A DNA stretch of 47,218 nt from Chloroflexota bacterium (lineage in GTDB: Bacteria > Chloroflexota > Dehalococcoidia > GIF9 > UBA5629). The stretch covers positions 1-47,218 of the forward strand of contig VGNY01000004.1 in the NCBI GenBank assembly GCA_016865895.1, read 5' to 3'. The translations under genes and the position numbers were made by a program. Position 1 is the stretch's first letter. The number at the start of each line of letters is the position of its first letter. The notes beneath the pieces were generated by a model. It made no database searches, was not told where the DNA came from, and saw only the letters and a program-made list of their open reading frames with translations. This document shows positions 31,630 through 47,218 of this stretch, piece after piece.

Positions 31630-32712
31630 TTACCTTTTCTTTCGCCATAGCGCTGGTTCATAAATACAGTACGGCTCAGCCTCCAGATAGTCGCCGGTGG
31701 ATTCATAGGCTCTGGCTCGGCAGCCGCCGCAGACTCTCCTATATTCACAGATGCCGCACTTTCCCTTGATATTCGATAGGTCTCTTAATTCATAGAATAG
31801 AGCGGAGTCCGCCCAGATTCGACTGAAGCTCTCGTTTTTTATATTCCCGGCCTCAACATCCAAATAGCCACATCCCTGCACTCTGCCGCGATGGGAGACG
31901 AAGCAAAAACCGGTGCCAGCTAGACAGCCGCGTGTCATAGAGTTCATGGCTTTGTTGCCAACTTTTGTTCCTTGCGGATTGCCCTTTTTCTCTCTTTGTC
32001 TGATTATCCGTTGATAGTGAGGGGCATCTGTGGGTTTGAAGAATATCCTGTCTTCCAGCTCCTTTTGCCTGTCATAGACCCAGTTTAGTGTCTGCTCGTA
32101 TTCTTCTGAGGACATCTCGACTGCTTCTAATCCTTTTCCCCGGCCCGTCGGTACCAGCATGAACGGATGGAATGCCACTGCCCCTGCTTTAAGGGCAAGA
32201 TTAAGCAGTTCATTCAAATACTTGATGTTTAGCCTAGTGATGGTGCTGTTGATCTGGATTTCAACGTCTGCCTGACGCAGGTAGGCAATACCAGTCATAG
32301 CTGCTTGGAAGGCACCTGCCTTACCACGAAACCTGTCCTGAAGTTCCGGCATGGGGAAGTCTATGCTCACAGCCACTCTCGACACCGGGATTGCTTTCAA
32401 TTTATGTGCAATCTCCTCTGTGACCAGCGTGCCGTTGGTGCCTATGACCACCCTTATCCCTTTTTCCACCGCATACCTGGCTATCTGGAAGAGGTCAGGA
32501 CGCAGAAGTGGTTCACCTCCGCTGATTATTATGACAGGTTTACCTACATCCAGTATGCCATCAACTAGGCCTAGACATTCTTCGGTGGTTAGCTCGTCTT
32601 TATAAGTGCCGCTGGTGGAGGAAGACCGACAATGGGCGCAAAACAAGTTGCAGCTTCTGGTTATCTCCCAGGCGACCATCTGTAGTTTTGGGATAATGCC
32701 TTCTTTTATCAT
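31630..32712 (-). CDS. ahbD: Radical SAM haem synthase AhbD-like
   Basis: LQMVAWEITRSCNLFCAHCRSSS (CxxxCxxC); SGGEPLLRPDLF; C-terminal SPASM-type CGICEYRRVCGGCRARAYESTGDYLEAEPYC. Confidence 0.85.
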   Translation of the reverse strand: MIKEGIIPKLQMVAWEITRSCNLFCAHCRSSSTSGTYKDELTTEECLGLVDGILDVGKPVIIISGGEPLLRPDLFQIARYAVEKGIRVVIGTNGTLVTEEIAHKLKAIPVSRVAVSIDFPMPELQDRFRGKAGAFQAAMTGIAYLRQADVEIQINSTITRLNIKYLNELLNLALKAGAVAFHPFMLVPTGRGKGLEAVEMSSEEYEQTLNWVYDRQKELEDRIFFKPTDAPHYQRIIRQREKKGNPQGTKVGNKAMNSMTRGCLAGTGFCFVSHRGRVQGCGYLDVEAGNIKNESFSRIWADSALFYELRDLSNIKGKCGICEYRRVCGGCRARAYESTGDYLEAEPYCIYEPALWRKKR

Positions 32713-33872
32713 TTAACTAATTCAATTTCACCGTCGGTCAAATAACATGCCGGGTCTTCGGCCCAAACATCGCCGAAAACCGTCTCCGCTCGCACTCGCA
32801 GGTTGCCATTGCACAGATCAAGGTACCGACATCTGGCACATCGCCCCTTGAGCAATTTTTTTCTGTCTTTAAGGCCATGCATCAACGGGTCTGATGTATC
32901 CAGCCAGATATCGCCGAATTTCCGCTGGCGTACATTGCCGAAGGAGTAATGTTGCCAGAATTGGTCAGCGTGGACATCCCCTGAAGCGTCAACTGCCCCT
33001 ATGCGGATGCCTGAGTTGTTGCCACCATTGGCTCGGAGCAATGCCAGCGCCTTCTGAGCACGGGTTGGGTCTTGTCTTTTCAACTTGAGGTACAGATAAA
33101 CACCGTCAGCGTGATTGTCCACAGTGAGGACTTCTTTAGGCAGGCCACGCTGGTAGAGGTCTGTAGTGCGGTCGCAGATTAAATCAACCACTTTTCTAGT
33201 TTGAGAATGGACCAAATCATCTGTTCTAAGTTGACTTCCACGGCCGGCATAGACGAGATGGTAAAAACAGAGTCGTTCTATTTCTTCACGTTCGACTAGG
33301 TCAAAAATTGCGGGTATTTCCGTATAAGTGGAGCGAGTAATGGTCAATCTCAGAGATATTCTCAGTTCCAGGGCAGTGCAGTTTCTGATACCTTGTAAAG
33401 CGGCTTGGTAAGCGCCCTTTTCCCCACGAAACTGGTCGTTTTTGTCACCAATGCCGTCCAGGCTAATGCCCACCTCGGCGAAACCGACGTCTCTTATTCT
33501 CTTAGCCACCTCTTGGGTGATAAGAGTACCGTTGCTGGACAGTACAGTCATTAATCCTTCCTTTCCGGCGAAGTCGGCAAGCTCAAAGATGTCATTCCTG
33601 AGCAAGGGCTCGCCGCCGGAAAATAATATCACCGGCACACCGAAATCAGCCAGGTCACGGATAAAAGACTTTGCCTCTTTAGTATTTAGAGTACCAACAG
33701 GGTCTTGGTTGCTGGCGCTGCTATAACAGTGGACGCAGCGGAGGTTACACTTCGTGGTGCAGTTCCAGACGATGATAGGTGGTTGTCTGTCACCGGCATA
33801 AATTTGACCACCGTAGCGCAGATTGTCGCCTAGCCCCGCTGCATCACAGAGCAATCTCGAAACCGATATCAT
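32709..33872 (-). CDS. ahbC: Radical SAM 12,18-didecarboxysiroheme deacetylase AhbC-like
   Basis: PPIIVWNCTTKCNLRCVHCYSSASNQ; DLADFGVPVILFSGGEPLLRNDIFELADFA; RCARCRYLDLCNGNLRVRAETVFGDVWAEDPACY. Confidence 0.85.
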   Translation of the reverse strand: MISVSRLLCDAAGLGDNLRYGGQIYAGDRQPPIIVWNCTTKCNLRCVHCYSSASNQDPVGTLNTKEAKSFIRDLADFGVPVILFSGGEPLLRNDIFELADFAGKEGLMTVLSSNGTLITQEVAKRIRDVGFAEVGISLDGIGDKNDQFRGEKGAYQAALQGIRNCTALELRISLRLTITRSTYTEIPAIFDLVEREEIERLCFYHLVYAGRGSQLRTDDLVHSQTRKVVDLICDRTTDLYQRGLPKEVLTVDNHADGVYLYLKLKRQDPTRAQKALALLRANGGNNSGIRIGAVDASGDVHADQFWQHYSFGNVRQRKFGDIWLDTSDPLMHGLKDRKKLLKGRCARCRYLDLCNGNLRVRAETVFGDVWAEDPACYLTDGEIELVK

Positions 33873-36606: not shown

Positions 36607-38052
36607 TTAGATAGGTGCTTTTACGATTACGGTTGTACCTTTGCCGGGCTGGGACTTTATCTCCAATTTACCTCCAATTAGGCGTGCTCGTTCTTCCATT
36701 CCCTGGACACCAAGTTTTCCTTCCTTGACCAGGTCCCCAGTCAATCTCGATAGTGAGAAGCCCTTGCCATTATCGGTGATAGTCATTCTGATGTGGCTTG
36801 AGTCTGATTCTACAGTGACATTGACCTCGGAGGCTTGGGCATGCTTTCGGACATTATTCAGAGCCTCCTGGGCAATACGAAACAGGGCAAGCTCTGTTTC
36901 TGAGGGTAATGAAGGCAATATATCCGCCTTCACTGCAGCTTTAATCTCCAGTTCTTTGCTAAGTTCCTCAGCTAACCAGTTGAGTGCCGCTACCAATCCC
37001 ATCTGGTCTAGAATACTTGGTCTCAGGTCACGGGCGTACCGCTGCAAGCTTTTATAGGCTTCGTTGGCGATGTTTTGCAGATGTTCTAGCTCGCTTATGG
37101 TAGCTTTGGGTAGCTTATGTGCGCCTCCAGATATAAGGATGTCCAAGCGGCGCGATAATAGCACTATTAATTGAGCAATATCATCGTGGAGCTCCCGGGC
37201 GATACGTTTGCGTTCCTCCTCTTGTGCCATGAGAGTTTCACGAATTTGAAAACGGAGATTGTCCCTCAACCTTCTTTCCTCGGTTACATCACGAGCGATG
37301 TTCTGGAAGGCGAGGGGCTTGCCGCCGGCTCGGATGAGGCGGGTAAATAATTCTACTATTGTCTCTGAGCCATCTTTTTTAATCAATCGCTGGTCATAGC
37401 GCTGGTCTATTGCTTCGCCTTGCATAAGTCTGGCCCTGACCTCTCTGGCTGTGTTTAATGCCTCAGGGGAGAGAAACTCGGAAACATTTTTGCCTATTAC
37501 TTCATTGGGGGGGTAGCCGCTGACTTTTTCACATGCATTATTGGCTATAACTATTTTGCCATCCATGTCGTGAACCCAAATAGCATCGCTGGCGTTAGTA
37601 AAAAGTTCCTCGTAGTTCTCTTGTGATGTTCTTAAAGCTGTTGTGATTCCATATAACTGTCTCTGTTGCCGATACCATCCGCGGTGCATTTGAATTAGTG
37701 AAATGCTTAAGCCGGCGACGATAAGCACAGCGAAGCTTTCAGTTAAGGTGGTTCTAGTGTCGGTTGGAATAACCAGTGCCTGAGGTATCATAGCCAGACC
37801 AGATGCCAACCATATGGTAATGCCGAACTTTATTCCCACTGACCAGCCAGCGTAGATTATCAGCAGAAGGTAGGCAAACCGCTCTACGATATCTGTTGAT
37901 AGACCAAAAAATGAAGTGAGAGACACTTTGCCTATCAAAGGCACGTTGGCTAGAAGCTCATGGTAGTGGGATAGAGTCAGAATAATGAAGAGCAAGATTA
38001 TGAAGCAGATGTGGAAATTATGCCATCTAGTTGACATCATCCTGATGCTCAT
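36607..38052 (-). CDS. Membrane sensor histidine kinase, PAS plus HisKA_3 (NarX/DegS type)
   Basis: PAS NYEELFTNASDAIWVHDMDGKIVIANNACEKVSGYPPNEVIGK; EEERKRIARELHDDIAQ; ITDNGKGFSL; hydrophobic N-terminus. Confidence 0.92.
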   Translation of the reverse strand: MSIRMMSTRWHNFHICFIILLFIILTLSHYHELLANVPLIGKVSLTSFFGLSTDIVERFAYLLLIIYAGWSVGIKFGITIWLASGLAMIPQALVIPTDTRTTLTESFAVLIVAGLSISLIQMHRGWYRQQRQLYGITTALRTSQENYEELFTNASDAIWVHDMDGKIVIANNACEKVSGYPPNEVIGKNVSEFLSPEALNTAREVRARLMQGEAIDQRYDQRLIKKDGSETIVELFTRLIRAGGKPLAFQNIARDVTEERRLRDNLRFQIRETLMAQEEERKRIARELHDDIAQLIVLLSRRLDILISGGAHKLPKATISELEHLQNIANEAYKSLQRYARDLRPSILDQMGLVAALNWLAEELSKELEIKAAVKADILPSLPSETELALFRIAQEALNNVRKHAQASEVNVTVESDSSHIRMTITDNGKGFSLSRLTGDLVKEGKLGVQGMEERARLIGGKLEIKSQPGKGTTVIVKAPI

Positions 38053-38094: not shown

Positions 38095-38814
38095 CTAGTT
38101 TTCGGAGCTGCGCTCTTGTTTAATATCTTCCAGAGTAAGCAATCCCGACCTCAAGGCTTGAACAAGGGCCTCACTACGCGAAGCAACATTCATTTTGGTG
38201 AAGATATTGGACATGTGAGCCTTAACAGTACGTAGGCTGAGGCATAACCTATCAGCTATTTCCTTGTTGCTCATGCCAGTAGCCAGCAACTTCAACAATT
38301 CACTCTCCCGGTCGCTTAGAAGTCCGCCTATCTTGTTCTCTGCAGTGCCAGGCGATTTGACCAAAGCTTGCCTGAGTAGCTTCTCGATGATCTTAGGGTG
38401 AAGCACTGACTCGCCGGCTCTTATGGCTCGTATGGCATCTACCAGGTCTTGTCCTCGAGCGCTTTTCAGTAAGTAGCCGGCCGCTCCAGCTTCAAGCAAT
38501 CCTAGTACATAATTGTCATCCTCATAGGCGGTGAGGACTAATATAGCTATAGTGGGGGCGAGCTTCTTAATTTGCCGGCTGGCTTCAAGCCCATCGAATT
38601 GGGGCATCATAATATCCATCACCACAATATCTGGCTTCAATTGGGAAGCTAGGTTGACAGCCTCCTCTCCGTTACTTGCCTCGCCTATTATCTCCATGTC
38701 TTTCTGGCTGGAGAATACCTGTGACAGTGCCTGGCGTAAAAGAGGATGGTCATCAGCAATTAAGATTCTAGTCTTCGGTTTCACTTTTTGTATCTCCGGA
38801 CCTGTTAGTAGCAA
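38095..38814 (-). CDS. NarL/FixJ-family response regulator
   Basis: RILIADDHPLLRQALSQVFSSQ; VVMDIMMPQFDGLEA; LuxR HTH LLATGMSNKEIADRLCLSLRTVKAHMSNIFTKM. Confidence 0.95.
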   Translation of the reverse strand: MLLTGPEIQKVKPKTRILIADDHPLLRQALSQVFSSQKDMEIIGEASNGEEAVNLASQLKPDIVVMDIMMPQFDGLEASRQIKKLAPTIAILVLTAYEDDNYVLGLLEAGAAGYLLKSARGQDLVDAIRAIRAGESVLHPKIIEKLLRQALVKSPGTAENKIGGLLSDRESELLKLLATGMSNKEIADRLCLSLRTVKAHMSNIFTKMNVASRSEALVQALRSGLLTLEDIKQERSSEN

Positions 38815-39017: not shown

Positions 39018-39083
39018 GGCTAAAGTACTATCTGAAATTAGAGCCAAAGACCGATGATAGATAGCTTACCGGTTGATAAATTT
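39018..39083 (+). promoter_or_regulatory. Duplicated leader element, copy A (upstream of the cNMP-binding/acsA unit)
   Basis: ggctaaagt-N8-aaattagagccaaagaccgatga...ctt...tg.taaattt; matches copy B at 42136-42201 without gaps. Confidence 0.6.
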
Positions 39084-39202
39084 ATACTAGTGTGGCCGCA
39101 TCGAAAAGATGGGTGGTTGGGTAAGTAGAAGTGGCAAGTTTGTGGCTGCATTGTAATAGTACTGACTCAGGTAGGAGAAATGTTAAAGGAGGTGGAAAAA
39201 TA

Positions 39203-39379
39203 ATGCAATTGCCGTTCATAGCAGTCCTAAGTCTGGCGGTGTCTGCTGTTTTGTTTCTGGTAGCATTTTTTTGGTATCCAAATATACGTGGTATTCACAG
39301 TGCGATGCAGAGGATGTTGAAGCTGTGGTCTGAGCGTACAAGAGCTAGGTCGATAACCGAAACCGGCTGCCGCGGTTGA
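39203..39379 (+). CDS. Small single-TM protein (58 aa)
   Basis: ATG preceded by AAAGGAGGTG; MQLPFIAVLSLAVSAVLFLVAFFWYPNIRG; ORF track start is 39131. Confidence 0.5.
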   Translation: MQLPFIAVLSLAVSAVLFLVAFFWYPNIRGIHSAMQRMLKLWSERTRARSITETGCRG

Positions 39380-39462: not shown

Positions 39463-39918
39463 ATGAATAAATTCGATGTACTAAGGAAATGCGACATGTT
39501 TCGAGCCTTGGATGATAAGCAGCTTCGTGAAGTTGAGAAAATGTGTGATTATGAAGAATTTGAGGCCGGGGCAATCATCTGCAAACAAGGCTTCAGAGAA
39601 GAAAAGCTTTATGTAATCGAATACGGCACAGTAGGAATTATTCTTGAGGTTGGGCCACTTGCCCAACGCCAAGTTCAAGCGGTGACCGACTTTGATGTTT
39701 TTGGTTGGTCATCTATGCTCGACCCATACGTTTGCACCGCTACAGTTAAAGCTTTAGAGAAGACGAGGGCATTGGCTTTTGATGGACAAGAATTATCTGG
39801 TTTGTGTGTAACCAGGCATGAGATAGGCTGCAGAGTTTCGAGAGGCATTGCACGTGTAGTGGCAATGAGGCTACGACAGGCGTATATCCAGTTGGTGGGG
39901 GTTACTTCACCAGTGTAA
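39463..39918 (+). CDS. Cyclic nucleotide-binding domain protein without an evident HTH
   Basis: [53 protein letters not shown]. Confidence 0.82.
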
Positions 39919-39964: not shown

Positions 39965-41932
39965 ATGGCAAATGTCGAGACAATTACCTCAATGATGGGA
40001 GAGAAAAGGGTTTTTAATCCTCCCAAAGAATTCAGCGAAAGAGCATATATACGAAATCTGGTTGAGTACAAAGAAATTTATCAGTGGTCAATTGATGACC
40101 CGGAGGGATTCTGGGGTGAGATGGCGGAACAGCTCGATTGGTATAAGAAGTGGGATAAGGTGCTTGTTGAAGACTTTAAGGAAGGCAAGCATGAGTGGTT
40201 TGTGGGTGGTAAACTCAATGTCAGCCATAATTGTCTGGATAGACATGTTAGGACTTGGAGGAAAAATAAGGCAGCATTGATTTGGGAAGGTGACATCGGC
40301 GACAGTAAGATACTCACTTATCAACAGCTGTACCGAGAGGTGTGCAAATTTGCCAATGTACTGAAAAAGCATGGTGTTAAGAAGGGGGATAGGGTATCTA
40401 TTTACTTGCCCATGATTGTCGAGTTGCCGATTGCCATGCTGGCTTGTGCCAGAATTGGTGCTATCCACAGTGTTATTTTTGGCGGTTTCAGTGCTGATGC
40501 ATTGAGAGATAGAATGTTGGATTGTGGGTCCACTGTGCTAATTTGTGTTGATGGCTACTATCGCGGGGGTAAGATTATAAGGAGTAAGGATAATGCCGAT
40601 GAAGCTCTTGAGGCCTGTCCTCTGGTAAAGGATGTGATAGTGGTCAAACGAGCTAGCATAGAAGTAGCCATGAGGAAAGGACGTGATTATTGGTGGGATA
40701 ACGAAATGGCGGCTGCCGGAGTTAACGCATATTGTGAACCCGAGGTGATGGACGCTGAGGACCCTTTGTTTATCTTGTATACCAGTGGCAGTACTGGAAA
40801 ACCTAAGGGAGTCCTCCATACTCAGGCTGGTTATCTACTTTATTGTTACCAGACTTTCAAGTGGATATTTGATGTGAAGGAAGAGGACACTTTTTGGTGC
40901 ACTGCCGATATCGGGTGGGTCACAGGTCATAGTTATATCGTCTATGGTCCTTTAGCCTTTGGAGCGACAAGCCTCATGTTTGAGGGAGTCCCGACATATC
41001 CCCATCCTGATCGTTTTTGGGAAATCGTGGAAAAATATCAGGTAAATGTTTTTTATACGGCTCCTACTGCCCTTCGAGCATTAATGAAAGAAGGAGAACA
41101 GTGGCCTAACAAGCATGATTTAAGCTCTTTGCATCTGTTGGGTACGGTTGGCGAGCCCATAAATCCTGAAGCTTGGATGTGGTATTACAATATGATAGGC
41201 AAAGGAAAGTGCCCCATTGTAGATACCTGGTGGCAAACTGAGACCGGTGCTGCCCTGATTAGCCCACTACCTGGAGCCATTCCTATCAAGCCAGGTTCAG
41301 CAACACTGCCGTTTCCTGGAATTGAATTGGCGATACTGAGAGAGGATGGTTCTAACGTCGGTGTTAATGAAGGTGGTTATCTGGTGATTAAGAGACCATG
41401 GCCGGGTTTGATGCGGCGAGTCTATGGTGACCCAGAGAGATTTAAGAATACTTACTTCGTTCGGTTCCCTGGTGTCTATACCACAGGAGATGGAGCCAGG
41501 ATAGACGAAGATGGCTACTATTGGTTAATGGGTCGTATAGACGATGTTATTAATGTGTCAGGTCACCGCATAGGCACTGCCGAGGTTGAAAGTGCGTTGG
41601 TGTCTCATGAGAAGGTGGCAGAGGCTGCAGTTGTTGGCATGCCCCACGAAATAAAGGGTCAAGGTATATATGCCTTTGTTACCTTGAAGGCTGGTGTGGA
41701 TAAGTCTGAAGGATTGAAGAAGGAACTGGTAGCTCATGTGCGTAAGGAAATTGGTCCGATAGCCACACCGGATAAGATTCAATTTGCTGACGTCTTGCCT
41801 AAGACCAGGAGCGGCAAAATCATGAGGAGGATATTGACCAAGATTGCTGCCGGTGATATAGAGCAACTGGGAGATATTACCACGCTGGCTGACCCATCAG
41901 TGGTTGATATTTTGGTGAAGGAGAGAATGTAG
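39965..41932 (+). CDS. acsA: Acetyl-CoA synthetase (AMP-forming)
   Basis: [40 protein letters not shown] aaaggaggt. Confidence 0.93.
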
Positions 41933-42135: not shown

Positions 42136-42201
42136 GGCTAAAGTTATAGCCAAAATTAGAGCCAAAGACCGATGAGAGTTGTCTTGGCCACTGCTAAATT
42201 T
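42136..42201 (+). promoter_or_regulatory. Duplicated leader element, copy B (upstream of the small protein/FNT unit)
   Basis: ggctaaagttatagccaaaattagagccaaagaccgatga...ctt...tgctaaattt; same spacing as copy A. Confidence 0.6.
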
Positions 42202-42231: not shown

Positions 42232-42558
42232 ATGACTAAGGAAATGCGTCCGAAGACCGAGGAAACCGCCGAAGCGCTGGAGAAGCTTGCCAGCGCACCC
42301 ACAGTTGTCCCGAAGGAAGGTCTGGCTGGAAGATGGGCAGTGCTATCCGTGTTGGCCAGAGCGGCTGACGAGCCTGAGTTCATGGCTCGTTTGGCAGAGA
42401 ACTCTCACGAAGCTCTCAAGGAATATTATACCTTAACTCAGGAGGAGAAAGCGGCCCTAGCTAGCGGTGACATCCAGAAGATAGAGAGTTGGGTAGGTAA
42501 ACTGGACAAGCGTCTATCAACCTGGCTCTGGTACCGACTATCTCAGGAGAAGTGGTAA
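42232..42558 (+). CDS. Small protein whose C-terminal domain matches the tail of the downstream FNT channel
   Basis: SD aaggaggtgac before ATG 42232; AVLSVLARAADEPEFMARLAENSHEALKEYYTLTQEEKAALASGD...RLSQEKW; ORF track start is 42172. Confidence 0.75.
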   Translation: MTKEMRPKTEETAEALEKLASAPTVVPKEGLAGRWAVLSVLARAADEPEFMARLAENSHEALKEYYTLTQEEKAALASGDIQKIESWVGKLDKRLSTWLWYRLSQEKW

Positions 42559-42574
42559 AGGGAGGAGCGGAGTC

Positions 42575-43825
42575 ATGGCAAACTTAAAGTCATCGGGCAA
42601 GGAAATACAGAGGCTGGAGAGTCAGAGGCTTCCGGCAGTTGAAGTGTCACGTCTCCAGACAGCATTGGAAGAGCTGAAAAACTGTGCTGCTACTGATTGT
42701 AGGCCGCCAGCAGAGATGGCAGTAAAAATGGAAGCTGTGGGTGTGGCCAAGGCGAATGGGAATATCTGGACTATCTCGCTTCTGGGCATACTAGCGGGTT
42801 TTTTCATTGGTTTGGGAGCCATGTTTTGTACTTTGGTTACCACTGACATCCAGGTTGGTTTCGGCCTGACCAAGCTGCTGGGTGGAGTCGTGTTCTGTCT
42901 AGGGCTTATTCTCGTGGTGCTAGCTGGAGCCGAGCTATTTACTGGCAATGCTCTCATGGTGGCCAGCCGAGCCAGCGGCAAGATAAAACTTTCTCAGCTG
43001 TTTCAAAACTGGGGCATAGTTTACTTCACCAATCTTGTCGGGTCATTGCTTCTAGTGGCAGTGGTCTTTTACAGTCAGTTCTGGGCACTAGATGGTTATA
43101 AGGTAGGTGTGAATGCCTTATCAATTGCCAATGCCAAGGTAAACCTGGCTTTTTGGCCGGCCTTCGCCCGTGGTATTCTGTGCAATACACTGGTCTGTTT
43201 AGCTGTCTGGCTCTGTTTTGGTGCTCGTTCCACCATTGATAAAGTATTTGCCATACTTTTCCCCATAACAGCGTTCGTGGCTTGTGGTTTTGAACACAGC
43301 ATAGCTAATATGTACTTTATTCCAATGGGTATAGTTATGGCAGGACAGGCCAAAGTCCTTGAAGTAGCTGGTGTAACTGCAAGCCAGGTAGCTAATCTCA
43401 ATGTAGCTGGCTTTATCGGCAATCTAGTCCCAGTTACTCTGGGCAATATTGTTGGTGGCACGTTTGTAGGCAGCATTTATTGGCTGGCATATCTTCGGAA
43501 GGAGCGTGCTGCTGAAGCAGCGACCGCCAGGCCGTGGCTTACGGGCATGTTCTCTAGGCCGGGCTTGCAACCTCAACAAGTGAACTATTTGGATGCTGAG
43601 ACCAAGGCTCTGATATCGGTGTTGGCTAAGGCCAGGGATGACAGTGCTTTCTTAGCCAAACTGGCTGATAATCCTGATAAGGCTCTTAAAGCTTATAAGT
43701 TAACTCCCGAGGCGAAGGCGGCTCTTGAGAGTGGAGATGTCCGCTGGCTGGAATCCAGGGTCGGTGTGTTAGATGAACCATTGCGTACTTGGCTTACCTC
43801 CCGGCTAGCCCAAGAAAAATGGTAA
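42575..43825 (+). CDS. Formate/nitrite transporter (FNT) family channel with an extra C-terminal domain
   Basis: GILAGFFIGLGAMFCTLV; VVLAGAELFTGNALM; ACGFEHSIANMYFIPMGI; GNIVGGTFVGSIYWLAY; tail ALISVLAKARDDSAFLAKLADNPDKALKAYKLTPEAKAALESGD...RLAQEKW. Confidence 0.9.
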   Translation: MANLKSSGKEIQRLESQRLPAVEVSRLQTALEELKNCAATDCRPPAEMAVKMEAVGVAKANGNIWTISLLGILAGFFIGLGAMFCTLVTTDIQVGFGLTKLLGGVVFCLGLILVVLAGAELFTGNALMVASRASGKIKLSQLFQNWGIVYFTNLVGSLLLVAVVFYSQFWALDGYKVGVNALSIANAKVNLAFWPAFARGILCNTLVCLAVWLCFGARSTIDKVFAILFPITAFVACGFEHSIANMYFIPMGIVMAGQAKVLEVAGVTASQVANLNVAGFIGNLVPVTLGNIVGGTFVGSIYWLAYLRKERAAEAATARPWLTGMFSRPGLQPQQVNYLDAETKALISVLAKARDDSAFLAKLADNPDKALKAYKLTPEAKAALESGDVRWLESRVGVLDEPLRTWLTSRLAQEKW

Positions 43826-43893: not shown

Positions 43894-44376
43894 CTATTTA
43901 TTGGGGTCTTTCTTGGTTATCTCCTGGATAATCATTTCAACGCAAGTGGGGATTGCCTGCTTAACATTAGGTGTACATTCTTCGCTGAAGGTGCTTATAT
44001 CTGATGCCTCGATGGCAAAAATGGTGATTTGCGGTGGTAGGGCAAGACCTAGCCTTTTGCCAAGCTCGATGGTGGTAGTAAAGCTAACATTGTGAGGTGC
44101 GGCTGTACGGTGGGTAGAATCAAACGCTTCAGGGTCAAGGCGGTAGATTTGTCCTGCCTTGCCATCTGCTGTCTGAATGGCGTCAATGATGACTGCTCTG
44201 TCATAGCCAACCAGCAGGTCTAAAAGGCTGAGACCGGCTACGCCGGTCTCCATAACGGTTATCTCTGGTTGGTCAAGCCTCTTTTTGAGTTCAGCAGCAA
44301 CATAAAGCCCCACCCCATCATCGCTGAGAAGCGAATTACCCATTCCCAGAATCAGTGTCTTCGTATTTCCATCCAC
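43894..44376 (-). CDS. Hydrogenase maturation protease
   Basis: TLILGMGNSLLSDDGVGLYVAAEL; DLLVGYDRAVIIDAIQT; next to hydrogenase genes. Confidence 0.9.
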   Translation of the reverse strand: MDGNTKTLILGMGNSLLSDDGVGLYVAAELKKRLDQPEITVMETGVAGLSLLDLLVGYDRAVIIDAIQTADGKAGQIYRLDPEAFDSTHRTAAPHNVSFTTTIELGKRLGLALPPQITIFAIEASDISTFSEECTPNVKQAIPTCVEMIIQEITKKDPNK

Positions 44377-44414
44377 TTATGATATTGCAACTATTACTGA
44401 CTGAGAAGCGCCGT

Positions 44415-45875
44415 TTAGCGGCTTAGCCTTTCTATCACTTCCCCCTTGCTATTGTAGATGATTACCTCCATTGGTGCCTGTCCTGGTAGGGTGTGGGTAG
44501 CGCAGGCAAGACAAAGGTCATAGGGACGCCAGGCCATTTCGATGCGGTTAAGCAGCCCTTCGGTTATCTCCTTGCCCGGTTTGATGAGTGCCATAGCCGC
44601 TTTCTTAACGGACATATTGACGGCGGCTGCATTATTGACGGTAGCCACAATCAGGTTGGCTTTCTTGATGACTCCTTTTTCGTCGGTAATGTAGTGATGG
44701 GTTAGCGTACCTCGAGGAGCCTCCACAATGCCGACACCTTCGTCAGGAGTAGCTGTGGGAATAGTACGTATATTGGGGCTGGTAATCTCGGGGTCTTTGC
44801 TGAGTTCCAGTAATCTTTCGGCAGCGTAGAGAAGCTCAACTAGGCGTGCCCAGTGAGTGGCTAATGTCTGATGCACGGGTTTGCCGCCCAGTGTGGAATA
44901 AAATCTCTCGTATTCTGTCTGGGCCAGCGGTGTTGCCATGCCATCGGCAGCATTGAGTCGGGAAAGAGGAGTTGCTCGGAAAACACCGCTATCCTTGCCA
45001 TCAACAAATCCCTTCCAGCCGATTTTCTTCAGGAAGGGGAATTTCATGTAACTCCAGGGCTCCACATGTTCAGCGACATGGTCGAGGTATTCCCGAGGGG
45101 CGTATTTGGCAAATTCCTTGCCATCGGGGTTAACCACTCTAACTTTGCCATCGTAGAAGTTGACCTTGTTCTTTTCGTCAACCAGTCCCATGTAGTAGGT
45201 GCGGTGAGTATAAGCATCGCTGAGAACCATATCCAGGTACTCTTTGTTCTTGAGGACGATATCATCAAAGACTTTCAGAGAAAGTTTGGCAAATTCCACA
45301 GAGTCCTTGGCTATCTGTTCAACTTCTTTCCTTTCGTCTTCGTTAAGGCCTTTGCTGATGCCGCCGGGAAGCCCAAATACTGGATGCACAGCCCTGCCGC
45401 CGAGCATGTGGATAATGCGGTGATTTTTCATCCGGGTGTTAATCACGGCTCCGCCTAGTTCCAAGCCGACCTTGGCGATGACACCCAGGATGTTGCGTTC
45501 GGCTACAGGAGCTTCAGGGCCCATGACGAAGTCAGGGCCAGCGAGGATATAGAAATGGGTGGTGTGGTCGGTGACGTAGAAGGCGCTGTAGAAAAGTTCG
45601 CGCAGCTTTTTGGCTGGGCTTGGCGGGTTAACATGGAACAGGTCGTCCAAGGCCTTGGTTGATGCCATATGGTGAGCTTCGGGGCAGACACCACAGATGC
45701 GCTGAGTGATTTGGGGCATGTCCTCGGCCAGTCGTCCTTCAGAGAATTTCTCAAAGCCCCTTAGCTCTGGGACTTGAAAGTAAGTATTTTCTACTTCACC
45801 AGCATCGTTGAGGAAAATTTCAATTTTGCCGTGACCTTCAAGTCTGGTGATAGGGTCTATGGTGATTTTTTTCAT
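44415..45875 (-). CDS. mvhA: [NiFe] hydrogenase large subunit, group 3 (Mvh/F420-non-reducing type)
   Basis: TRLEGHGKIEIFLNDAGEV; RICGVCPEAHHMAS; C-terminal DLCLACATHTLPGQAPMEV. Confidence 0.88.
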   Translation of the reverse strand: MKKITIDPITRLEGHGKIEIFLNDAGEVENTYFQVPELRGFEKFSEGRLAEDMPQITQRICGVCPEAHHMASTKALDDLFHVNPPSPAKKLRELFYSAFYVTDHTTHFYILAGPDFVMGPEAPVAERNILGVIAKVGLELGGAVINTRMKNHRIIHMLGGRAVHPVFGLPGGISKGLNEDERKEVEQIAKDSVEFAKLSLKVFDDIVLKNKEYLDMVLSDAYTHRTYYMGLVDEKNKVNFYDGKVRVVNPDGKEFAKYAPREYLDHVAEHVEPWSYMKFPFLKKIGWKGFVDGKDSGVFRATPLSRLNAADGMATPLAQTEYERFYSTLGGKPVHQTLATHWARLVELLYAAERLLELSKDPEITSPNIRTIPTATPDEGVGIVEAPRGTLTHHYITDEKGVIKKANLIVATVNNAAAVNMSVKKAAMALIKPGKEITEGLLNRIEMAWRPYDLCLACATHTLPGQAPMEVIIYNSKGEVIERLSR

Positions 45876-46831
45876 TTTATTCTTGCCCTCCTTAGTAGCG
45901 AATCAGGTAAGCTGTAGCGGTAGAAGGTGCCTACAGGGTCGTGGATGCTGGCGATGATTTTATCTATTTCGGCTGGGTCATTGGAGTCAATCACTGAGGA
46001 TATGGCGCTTAAGAAATGAGCTCCTTGGTCGATTACTCCGTCCACCGGTCCGTAGCAGCCAGTGCAAGGCATGTTAGCCTGTGGGCAGGGGGCCTCACAG
46101 CCACCACGGGTGGCGATGCCGGCGCATAGTAAGCCTTGCTCCAGCAGACATATTTCTGGTTCAGGTATGATTTCAAAGGTTCGGTAGAATTTCTTAACCT
46201 TTTTCACATCTCTTTTCCGAGGGCAATCATCGCATACCGCTTTGGCATTATGTGTAATCACTGTCCCTTTTGGCGGCAGTTTACCCTCAATTAAGGCTTC
46301 CAAAGCCAGCCATGTCGTTCTGGCTTCTGGGGGACAACCGGGGATGGTATAGTCCACATCCACTGTCTGGCCGAGTGTCTTGACCGTATCATAGAACTCA
46401 GGGATGTTAAGTTCACCTTCAGGCACCTTGTATTTTGTCTGTGGTAAGACCTTTTCTTTGTTATCGGTTGATGGTGTTTCCAGGTAGGCTCGTTCAAAAA
46501 TGAGTTCCCGGTTGAACATATTGCCCAGGCCAGGGATGCCACCTCCATAGGCACAGGCGCCGTAGGCAATCATCACCTTTGACTTTTCGCGGAGCATTTT
46601 AGCTAGGTGTTCCTGTTCTGAAGTTCGAACGGCTCCATTAAACAGACAGACATCTATGCTTTTCTGGGGCATAGCTTCGACGTCTTTGTACTTGGCGTCA
46701 ATGGCTACCGGCCAGAACACGATGTCAGCGACCTCAGCTAGTTTCAGGATTTTGTCGCCAATCTGGAGCTGAGCAATTTCACATCCGCCGCAACTAGAAG
46801 CCCAGTAGAGAGCTATTTTAAGCTTTGCCAT
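45872..46831 (-). CDS. mvhG: [NiFe] hydrogenase small subunit (MvhG-like)
   Basis: [54 protein letters not shown]; Cys-rich C-terminus. Confidence 0.87.
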
Positions 46832-47218
46832 GTTTTGCCTCCTTGGAGTTGTTCTTAAAGGGTCCTAGTGCCCTAACTTTGGCGGTCATATCGTCAACTA
46901 TTGAGACGAAGCGGTCACCTTCGGATGCTGATACCCAATCAAGTCGTACTCGCTCATTATCAATTCCGAGCTGGCTCAATGTTTTCTTGAGCAATGGCAT
47001 GCGCCGCATTGTCTTATAGTTTCCTTCGGAGTAGTGGCAATCGCCAGGATGACAACCTAAGACCAAAACGCCATCAGCTCCTAGTTGAAAAGCTTTGACG
47101 ATGAAGGTTGGTTCTACCCGGCCACTGCACATCACTCTGATGATACGGACGTTAGGTGAGCATTTCATTCTGGCAGTGCCAGCCAAATCGGCGCCCCGAT
47201 AAGAGCACCAGTTACAAC
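46818..47218 (-). CDS. mvhD: MvhD-like hydrogenase iron-sulfur subunit, truncated by the window edge
   Basis: The frame continues to the edge as [62 protein letters not shown]. Confidence 0.85.

Follow-up and report, generated by a model that had tools for sequence, protein, structure and literature searches.

A small domain ending in the motif QEKW was found in two forms at one locus of a Chloroflexota bacterium of the class Dehalococcoidia: as a free protein and, encoded immediately downstream, as the C-terminal tail of an FNT-family channel. In other species, the same domain forms the C-terminal tail of the catalytic (alpha) subunit of a NuoE/NuoF-type formate dehydrogenase (FDH). The arrangement is real and conserved, and apparently undescribed; a literature search combining the domain with formate proteins found no paper. 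Both the fold and its use in cis and in trans are already known, and the arrangement is a variant of them.

The window, i.e., the whole stretch of DNA that was analysed, comprises 47,218 nt of contig VGNY01000004.1 (GCA_016865895.1), part of a genome of 2.6 Mb. The features considered here are as follows:

36607–38052, minus strand: sensor histidine kinase with a hydrophobic N-terminal region, PAS, HisKA_3 and HATPase_c
38095–38814, minus strand: divergent NarL/LuxR-type response regulator (Response_reg and GerE)
39035–39056, plus strand: second exact copy of AAATTAGAGCCAAAGACCGATG, at the start of the cNMP/acs unit
39463–39918, plus strand: cyclic-nucleotide-binding-fold protein without a DNA-binding domain, recurrent in FNT-type modules
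39965–41932, plus strand: AMP-forming acetyl-CoA synthetase
42153–42174, plus strand: conserved 22-nt element AAATTAGAGCCAAAGACCGATG, ahead of the free gene
42232–42558, plus strand: free QEKW-domain protein, 108 aa, predicted Os1348/NHLP-clan fold (ORF, HMM, BLASTP, AlphaFold)
42560–42567, plus strand: Shine–Dalgarno-like GGGAGGAG, between the free-protein stop and the FNT start
42575–43825, plus strand: FNT-family channel, putatively formate-type, 416 aa, with an N-terminal extension and a C-terminal QEKW domain
42713–43486, plus strand: FNT (Form_Nir_trans) channel body, PF01226 positions 1–240
43514–43588, plus strand: linker from the last membrane helix to the tail domain, residues 314–338, pLDDT <50
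43607–43822, plus strand: tethered QEKW domain, FNT residues 345–416 (HMM, BLASTP, AlphaFold model)

The free-protein ORF starts with an ATG at 42232, has a strong Shine–Dalgarno sequence ahead of it and ends with the stop codon at 42556–42558; the domain occupies residues ~33–108. The FNT gene follows after 16 nt on the same strand, and both genes have a good Shine–Dalgarno sequence. A small ORF with one likely membrane helix is located at 39131–39379, downstream of the place where related genomes have an extra free-domain gene, and is found at the same position in relative L029. Positions 43894–47216 hold a convergent cluster encoding a hydrogenase maturation protease and Vhu/Mvh-like [NiFe] hydrogenase subunits; this cluster adjoins the module in several relatives and is replaced in others. 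Two radical-SAM genes resembling AhbD/NirJ2 and AhbC/NirJ1 lie beside haem/sirohaem genes at 31630–33872. Judged by their best matches, which were below equivalog cut-offs, they are genes of an alternative haem pathway, not RiPP enzymes.

The free protein and the FNT tail (from ~43607) were identical at 42 of 73 positions (58%, BLASTP E = 5e-23) and both ended in QEKW, in agreement with the preliminary description, which had called them homologous. This homology is not due to chance, because both copies matched the same NCBIfam domain, NF038399 ('Os1348 family NHLP clan'). The free copy scored 40.3 bits against a cut-off of 40, and the FNT tail alone scored 33.6 bits (E = 3e-8), which is below that cut-off. 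Free copies scored 40.3, 42.8, 44.4, 53.6 and 40.6 bits. The Pfam family Frankia_peptide matched the domain weakly. On these profile scores, the domain is assigned to the Os1348/NHLP clan, with free copies over the cut-off and the FNT tail below it. The window genome contained only these two copies of the domain, and a plasmid search yielded nothing.

The AlphaFold model of the free protein (mean pLDDT 69.5) had helices at residues 31–46, 48–56, 58–64, 70–78, 81–88 and 93–105, with the first ~29 residues predicted to be disordered. In the model of the channel, the tail was a separately folded helical domain past the low-confidence linker. The best Foldseek matches were the OphA clasp, SonA (a borosin precursor leader), nitrile hydratase alpha and Os1348, all with E ≥ 0.55; TMt reached 0.73 for SonA, with E > 0.5. 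These matches, individually weak, agree with the HMM results, and the models are consistent with an Os1348/NHLP-, LigA- or borosin-binding-domain-like fold, the latter two being bundles of five to six helices. The resemblance to LigA and Nif11-type leaders given in the preliminary description was thus about right. Domains of the LigA/borosin-binding type dock on partner proteins, in trans or in cis (PMC8429565), and Os1348 is a homodimer in the crystal, with an interface formed by helices 1, 4, 5 and 6 (PMC7726476).

The body of the channel matched PF01226 with 245 bits (cut-off 34.6), and its score against the FocA equivalog TIGR04060 was 249.6 bits, below the cut-off of 290.1. Behind its last helix, it has a Y-L-R motif, which is typical of formate channels (PMC5572259). 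Its sequence suggests a FocA-like FNT of the formate type, with acetate as a possible substrate given the neighbouring acs gene. FNT proteins were present in 52 of the 393 Dehalococcoidia genomes, 12 of which encoded a tailed one, and a free copy was located beside the channel in all 12. The tailed FNT ORFs were 410–471 aa long, with a degenerate tail end in L072, and their bodies formed one clade (support 86/94); the seemingly tailless rows L154, L155 and L160 of that tree are wrong-frame ORFs to be disregarded and fall outside this clade. Other FNT paralogues in the class had no tail. The tail is not a common FNT feature, and the corresponding objection, namely that the domain might be a common FNT extension, failed in this domain search.

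On FDH, the tail starts directly after the normal end of the enzyme. One tailed host scored 827.6 bits against TIGR01591 (cut-off 666), making it a true Fdh-alpha, and the remaining tailed FDHs also exceeded the cut-off. FDH paralogues elsewhere in the same genomes were without a tail. The ORFs encoding tailed alpha subunits were 931–1027 aa long, or 607–611 aa after an in-frame TGA. A single in-frame TGA interrupted the genes at L073:5778-8744, L077:5370-8345 and L078:4858-7824, and this codon likely encodes selenocysteine. At L091:645-3455, the tail is apparently frameshifted: the ORF stops shortly after the enzyme body, with part of a tail encoded close by in a different frame.

A profile search detected the domain in 29 of the 393 Dehalococcoidia genomes. 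It occurred in ORFs of ~100–190 aa or at the extreme C-terminus of FNT or FDH alpha, apart from a few short fragments, and no third host protein was found among the 393 genomes. Gene maps of 34 loci revealed a recurring module in which genes for a kinase and a response regulator are divergent from the free gene. In one version, the free gene is followed by the tailed FNT, often with acetyl-CoA synthetase, acetate permease and the cNMP-fold protein; in the other, it is followed by NuoE-like, NuoF-like and tailed FDH alpha genes. The co-occurrence of free and tethered copies, noticed initially in the window, was borne out by both of its ORFs and recurred in about a dozen other genomes. A tail without a free copy was seen only where the contig was cut or the tail broken. 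Since genomes G383, G394 and G240 have free copies without any tail, a function independent of the tail must exist for the free protein. We considered a general role for the free protein in bridging a tailed FNT and a tailed FDH within a cell and rejected it, as no genome was shown to have both tails. Genome G187 has an FNT as well as a contig with the free gene and NuoE/NuoF that stops before FDH; the free copy of that contig groups with another family, and contamination is possible.

Outside Dehalococcoidia, a phylum-wide sample of 400 genomes yielded no domain on FNT or FDH and only distant small or leader-like homologues. At four loci of other Chloroflexota (L125, L132, L133 and L141), distant Os1348-like leader domains were located near genes whose sequences, by eye, resembled cyclic-nucleotide-binding domains; a cNMP-fold gene is also part of the FNT-type module in Dehalococcoidia. 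At L137:9562-19901, five successive ORFs each had an Os1348-like leader domain heading a long low-complexity protein, which by sequence looks like a precursor array.

On the phylogenetic tree of the domain, copies clustered by form: FNT tails in one clade (95/88), FDH tails in another (98/93) and 30 of the 31 free copies in a third (96/91), with only the long-branch L087 outside. A single clade of all free copies was not rejected (p-AU 0.33). The pairing of free copies and tails is therefore old, and the cis and trans copies have been maintained as distinct lineages. These separate clades, with all but one free copy in theirs, rule out a recent local duplication of the domain.

The most conserved part of the domain was its C-terminus, RLxQEKW, in which R, Q and E were invariant across 51 copies and K and W were conserved in at least 90%. 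Among free copies accompanied by a tail, or by a contig end that could hide one, four of 29 deviated mildly from QEKW, compared to three of three in genomes without a detected tail (one-sided p about 0.007, uncorrected for relatedness). The three altered termini were QEK-stop (L075), KERW (L088) and QEIW (L087). In L086, both the free and the tail copy ended in QQESW. Charge complementarity between free copies and tails (K/R versus E after LD) seemed suggestive at first and proved inconsistent across copies.

A divergent response regulator was found near 29 of the 33 free genes. The element AAATTAGAGCCAAAGACCGATG occurs in two exact copies in the whole 2.6 Mb genome, both in this locus. An element ending in CGATG preceded 21 of the 33 free genes, compared to 4.5 in mononucleotide shuffles. 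In the related genomes L029–L031, both element positions precede a free gene; the window has therefore apparently lost one free copy. AAATTAGAGCCAAAGACCGATG is likely a shared promoter or regulator site and is a candidate site for the response regulator; we infer that the neighbouring regulator binds it and controls the module. The predicted fold of the leader RNA was no more stable than that of shuffles (z −0.14).

We tentatively favour, at somewhat under an even chance, a reading in which the domain is a docking (clasp) module of formate proteins, working both in cis and in trans and governed by a single two-component system. On formate-handling proteins, this small helical domain of the NHLP/Os1348/LigA/borosin-binding-domain fold would mediate protein interactions, with the free protein as the docking subunit in trans and the tail on FNT or FDH as the same clasp in cis. 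The contacts for assembly would be made by the domain and by the conserved helix at its C-terminus (...W-L-x-x-R-L-x-Q-E-K-W). The free copy and the tail might pair pseudo-symmetrically as a heterodimer, in the manner of the Os1348 homodimer, or might sit side by side on a common partner. In either case, the clasp would retain the formate channel, or the enzyme, within a complex and tune its activity, and expression would be set by the adjacent two-component system via the conserved upstream element. The preliminary description had proposed dimerisation or competition of the two copies. We found no covariation of free and tail distances beyond the channel or FDH core (partial r −0.38, n = 13, Mantel p 0.97, and partial r −0.15, n = 7, in a second set; the domain is short and power was low in both), and direct binding of the free copy to the tail is therefore not established.

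The main rival to the docking reading is signalling to the two-component system, which we consider unlikely. The histidine kinase or response regulator nearby would be the binding partner of free and tethered copies alike; the channel or FDH would compete against the free protein for the kinase and thereby report formate flux, in the way that transporters report to DcuS or UhpB-type sensors. The divergent response regulator is a more regular companion of the free gene than the tail is, G383 and G394 retain the free gene and the two-component system without a tail, the 22-nt element occurs nowhere in this genome outside the locus, and the identical C-terminal motif of both copies fits a common third partner. 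However, plain transcriptional control would explain the adjacency equally well, the kinase has no demonstrated shared interaction motif, and a soluble cytoplasmic FDH would be an odd reporter of transport. A slightly less probable form of this idea is formate-flux sensing in which cis and trans copies compete for one partner, e.g., the linked histidine kinase, whose occupancy sets the regulon. Pore gating in the manner of GlnK–AmtB, where the free protein would open or close the pore by binding the tails on the cytoplasmic side of the FNT pentamer, is more doubtful still. Immediately ahead of the channel gene lies the gene for the small soluble protein, FNT proteins have cytoplasmic termini and a flexible linker precedes the tail; moreover, FocA relies for transport on its own C-terminal residues and on a partner that binds its N-terminus (PMC5572259). 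Yet many genomes pair the free copy with FDH and have no tailed channel, and gating thus cannot be the general role. Of the earlier suggestion, the presence of free and tethered copies is supported, and a reading purely as channel gating is too narrow.

A role as a RiPP-type substrate or maturation tag, with the domain as leader and the C-terminal WLxxRLxQEKW as an enzyme-modified core, appears improbable despite the similarity to NF038399 and Frankia_peptide and the fold matches to borosin precursors. Precursors of the NHLP type are defined by a leader ending in Gly-Gly and a hypervariable core (PMC2887384). Here, the conserved Gly-Gly cleavage motif is absent (five GG are scattered elsewhere in the region), and the C-terminus is near-invariant, whereas cores of the TIGR03793 type are hypervariable and rich in Cys, Ser and Thr. 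None of the 29 domain-bearing genomes had a YcaO cyclodehydratase or an NHLM exporter (TIGR03796) over the cut-off, and modification enzymes were absent from the gene families mapped around the loci; the genome-wide search for such enzymes covered YcaO. A RiPP role is disfavoured on account of the missing Gly-Gly, the near-invariant end and the lack of YcaO and of an exporter over the cut-off. We give the least credence to selfish or neutral fusion, according to which the tails are functionless relics of read-through from the free gene. An extreme C-terminal position is easily gained, and the degenerate FNT tail of L072 and the apparently frameshifted FDH tail of L091 would fit such an origin, but each fusion type forms one old clade across many genera with a near-invariant QEKW, and the motif is intact in most tails, unlike under neutral decay.

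The fold has been known mainly from the leaders of antibiotic precursors and from small subunits of dioxygenases; these observations extend it to core C1 metabolism, where one and the same removable tail connects a membrane channel with a soluble enzyme. Should the free copy bind the tails, the two would form a docking pair that is compact and portable, and would offer a concrete clue to formate handling by uncultured Dehalococcoidia. Formate-flux sensing, if true, would mean that a RiPP-leader fold also serves in signalling, outside any RiPP role. Matches to NF038399 or PF14407 should not automatically be annotated as RiPP precursors.

Among known systems, Os1348 (NF038399; PF14407; PDB 6lk7) is similar in its HMM match (40–54 bits), its small all-helical form and the homodimer of its solved member. 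It differs in being antibiotic-related and encoded beside GNAT, peptidase and SagB-like genes; the gene described here belongs to a formate/acetate operon, has a near-invariant C-terminus and exists alongside a tethered copy. The borosin binding domain (SonA; the OphMA clasp) and LigA of extradiol dioxygenases gave the best fold matches and likewise dock in trans or in cis, but here there is no methyltransferase or dioxygenase partner, the hosts are a formate channel and FDH, and cis and trans copies occur side by side. The channel shares PF01226, FocA-type similarity and the Y-L-R past the last helix with FocA/FdhC-type formate channels. E. coli FocA ends five residues after Y-L-R, whereas this channel continues with a ~30-residue linker and a folded tail of 72 residues. 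In GlnK–AmtB, a small soluble protein is likewise encoded just upstream of an oligomeric channel. That system is unrelated in sequence and fold and serves as a comparison of working principle only, as the small protein described here also pairs with an enzyme.
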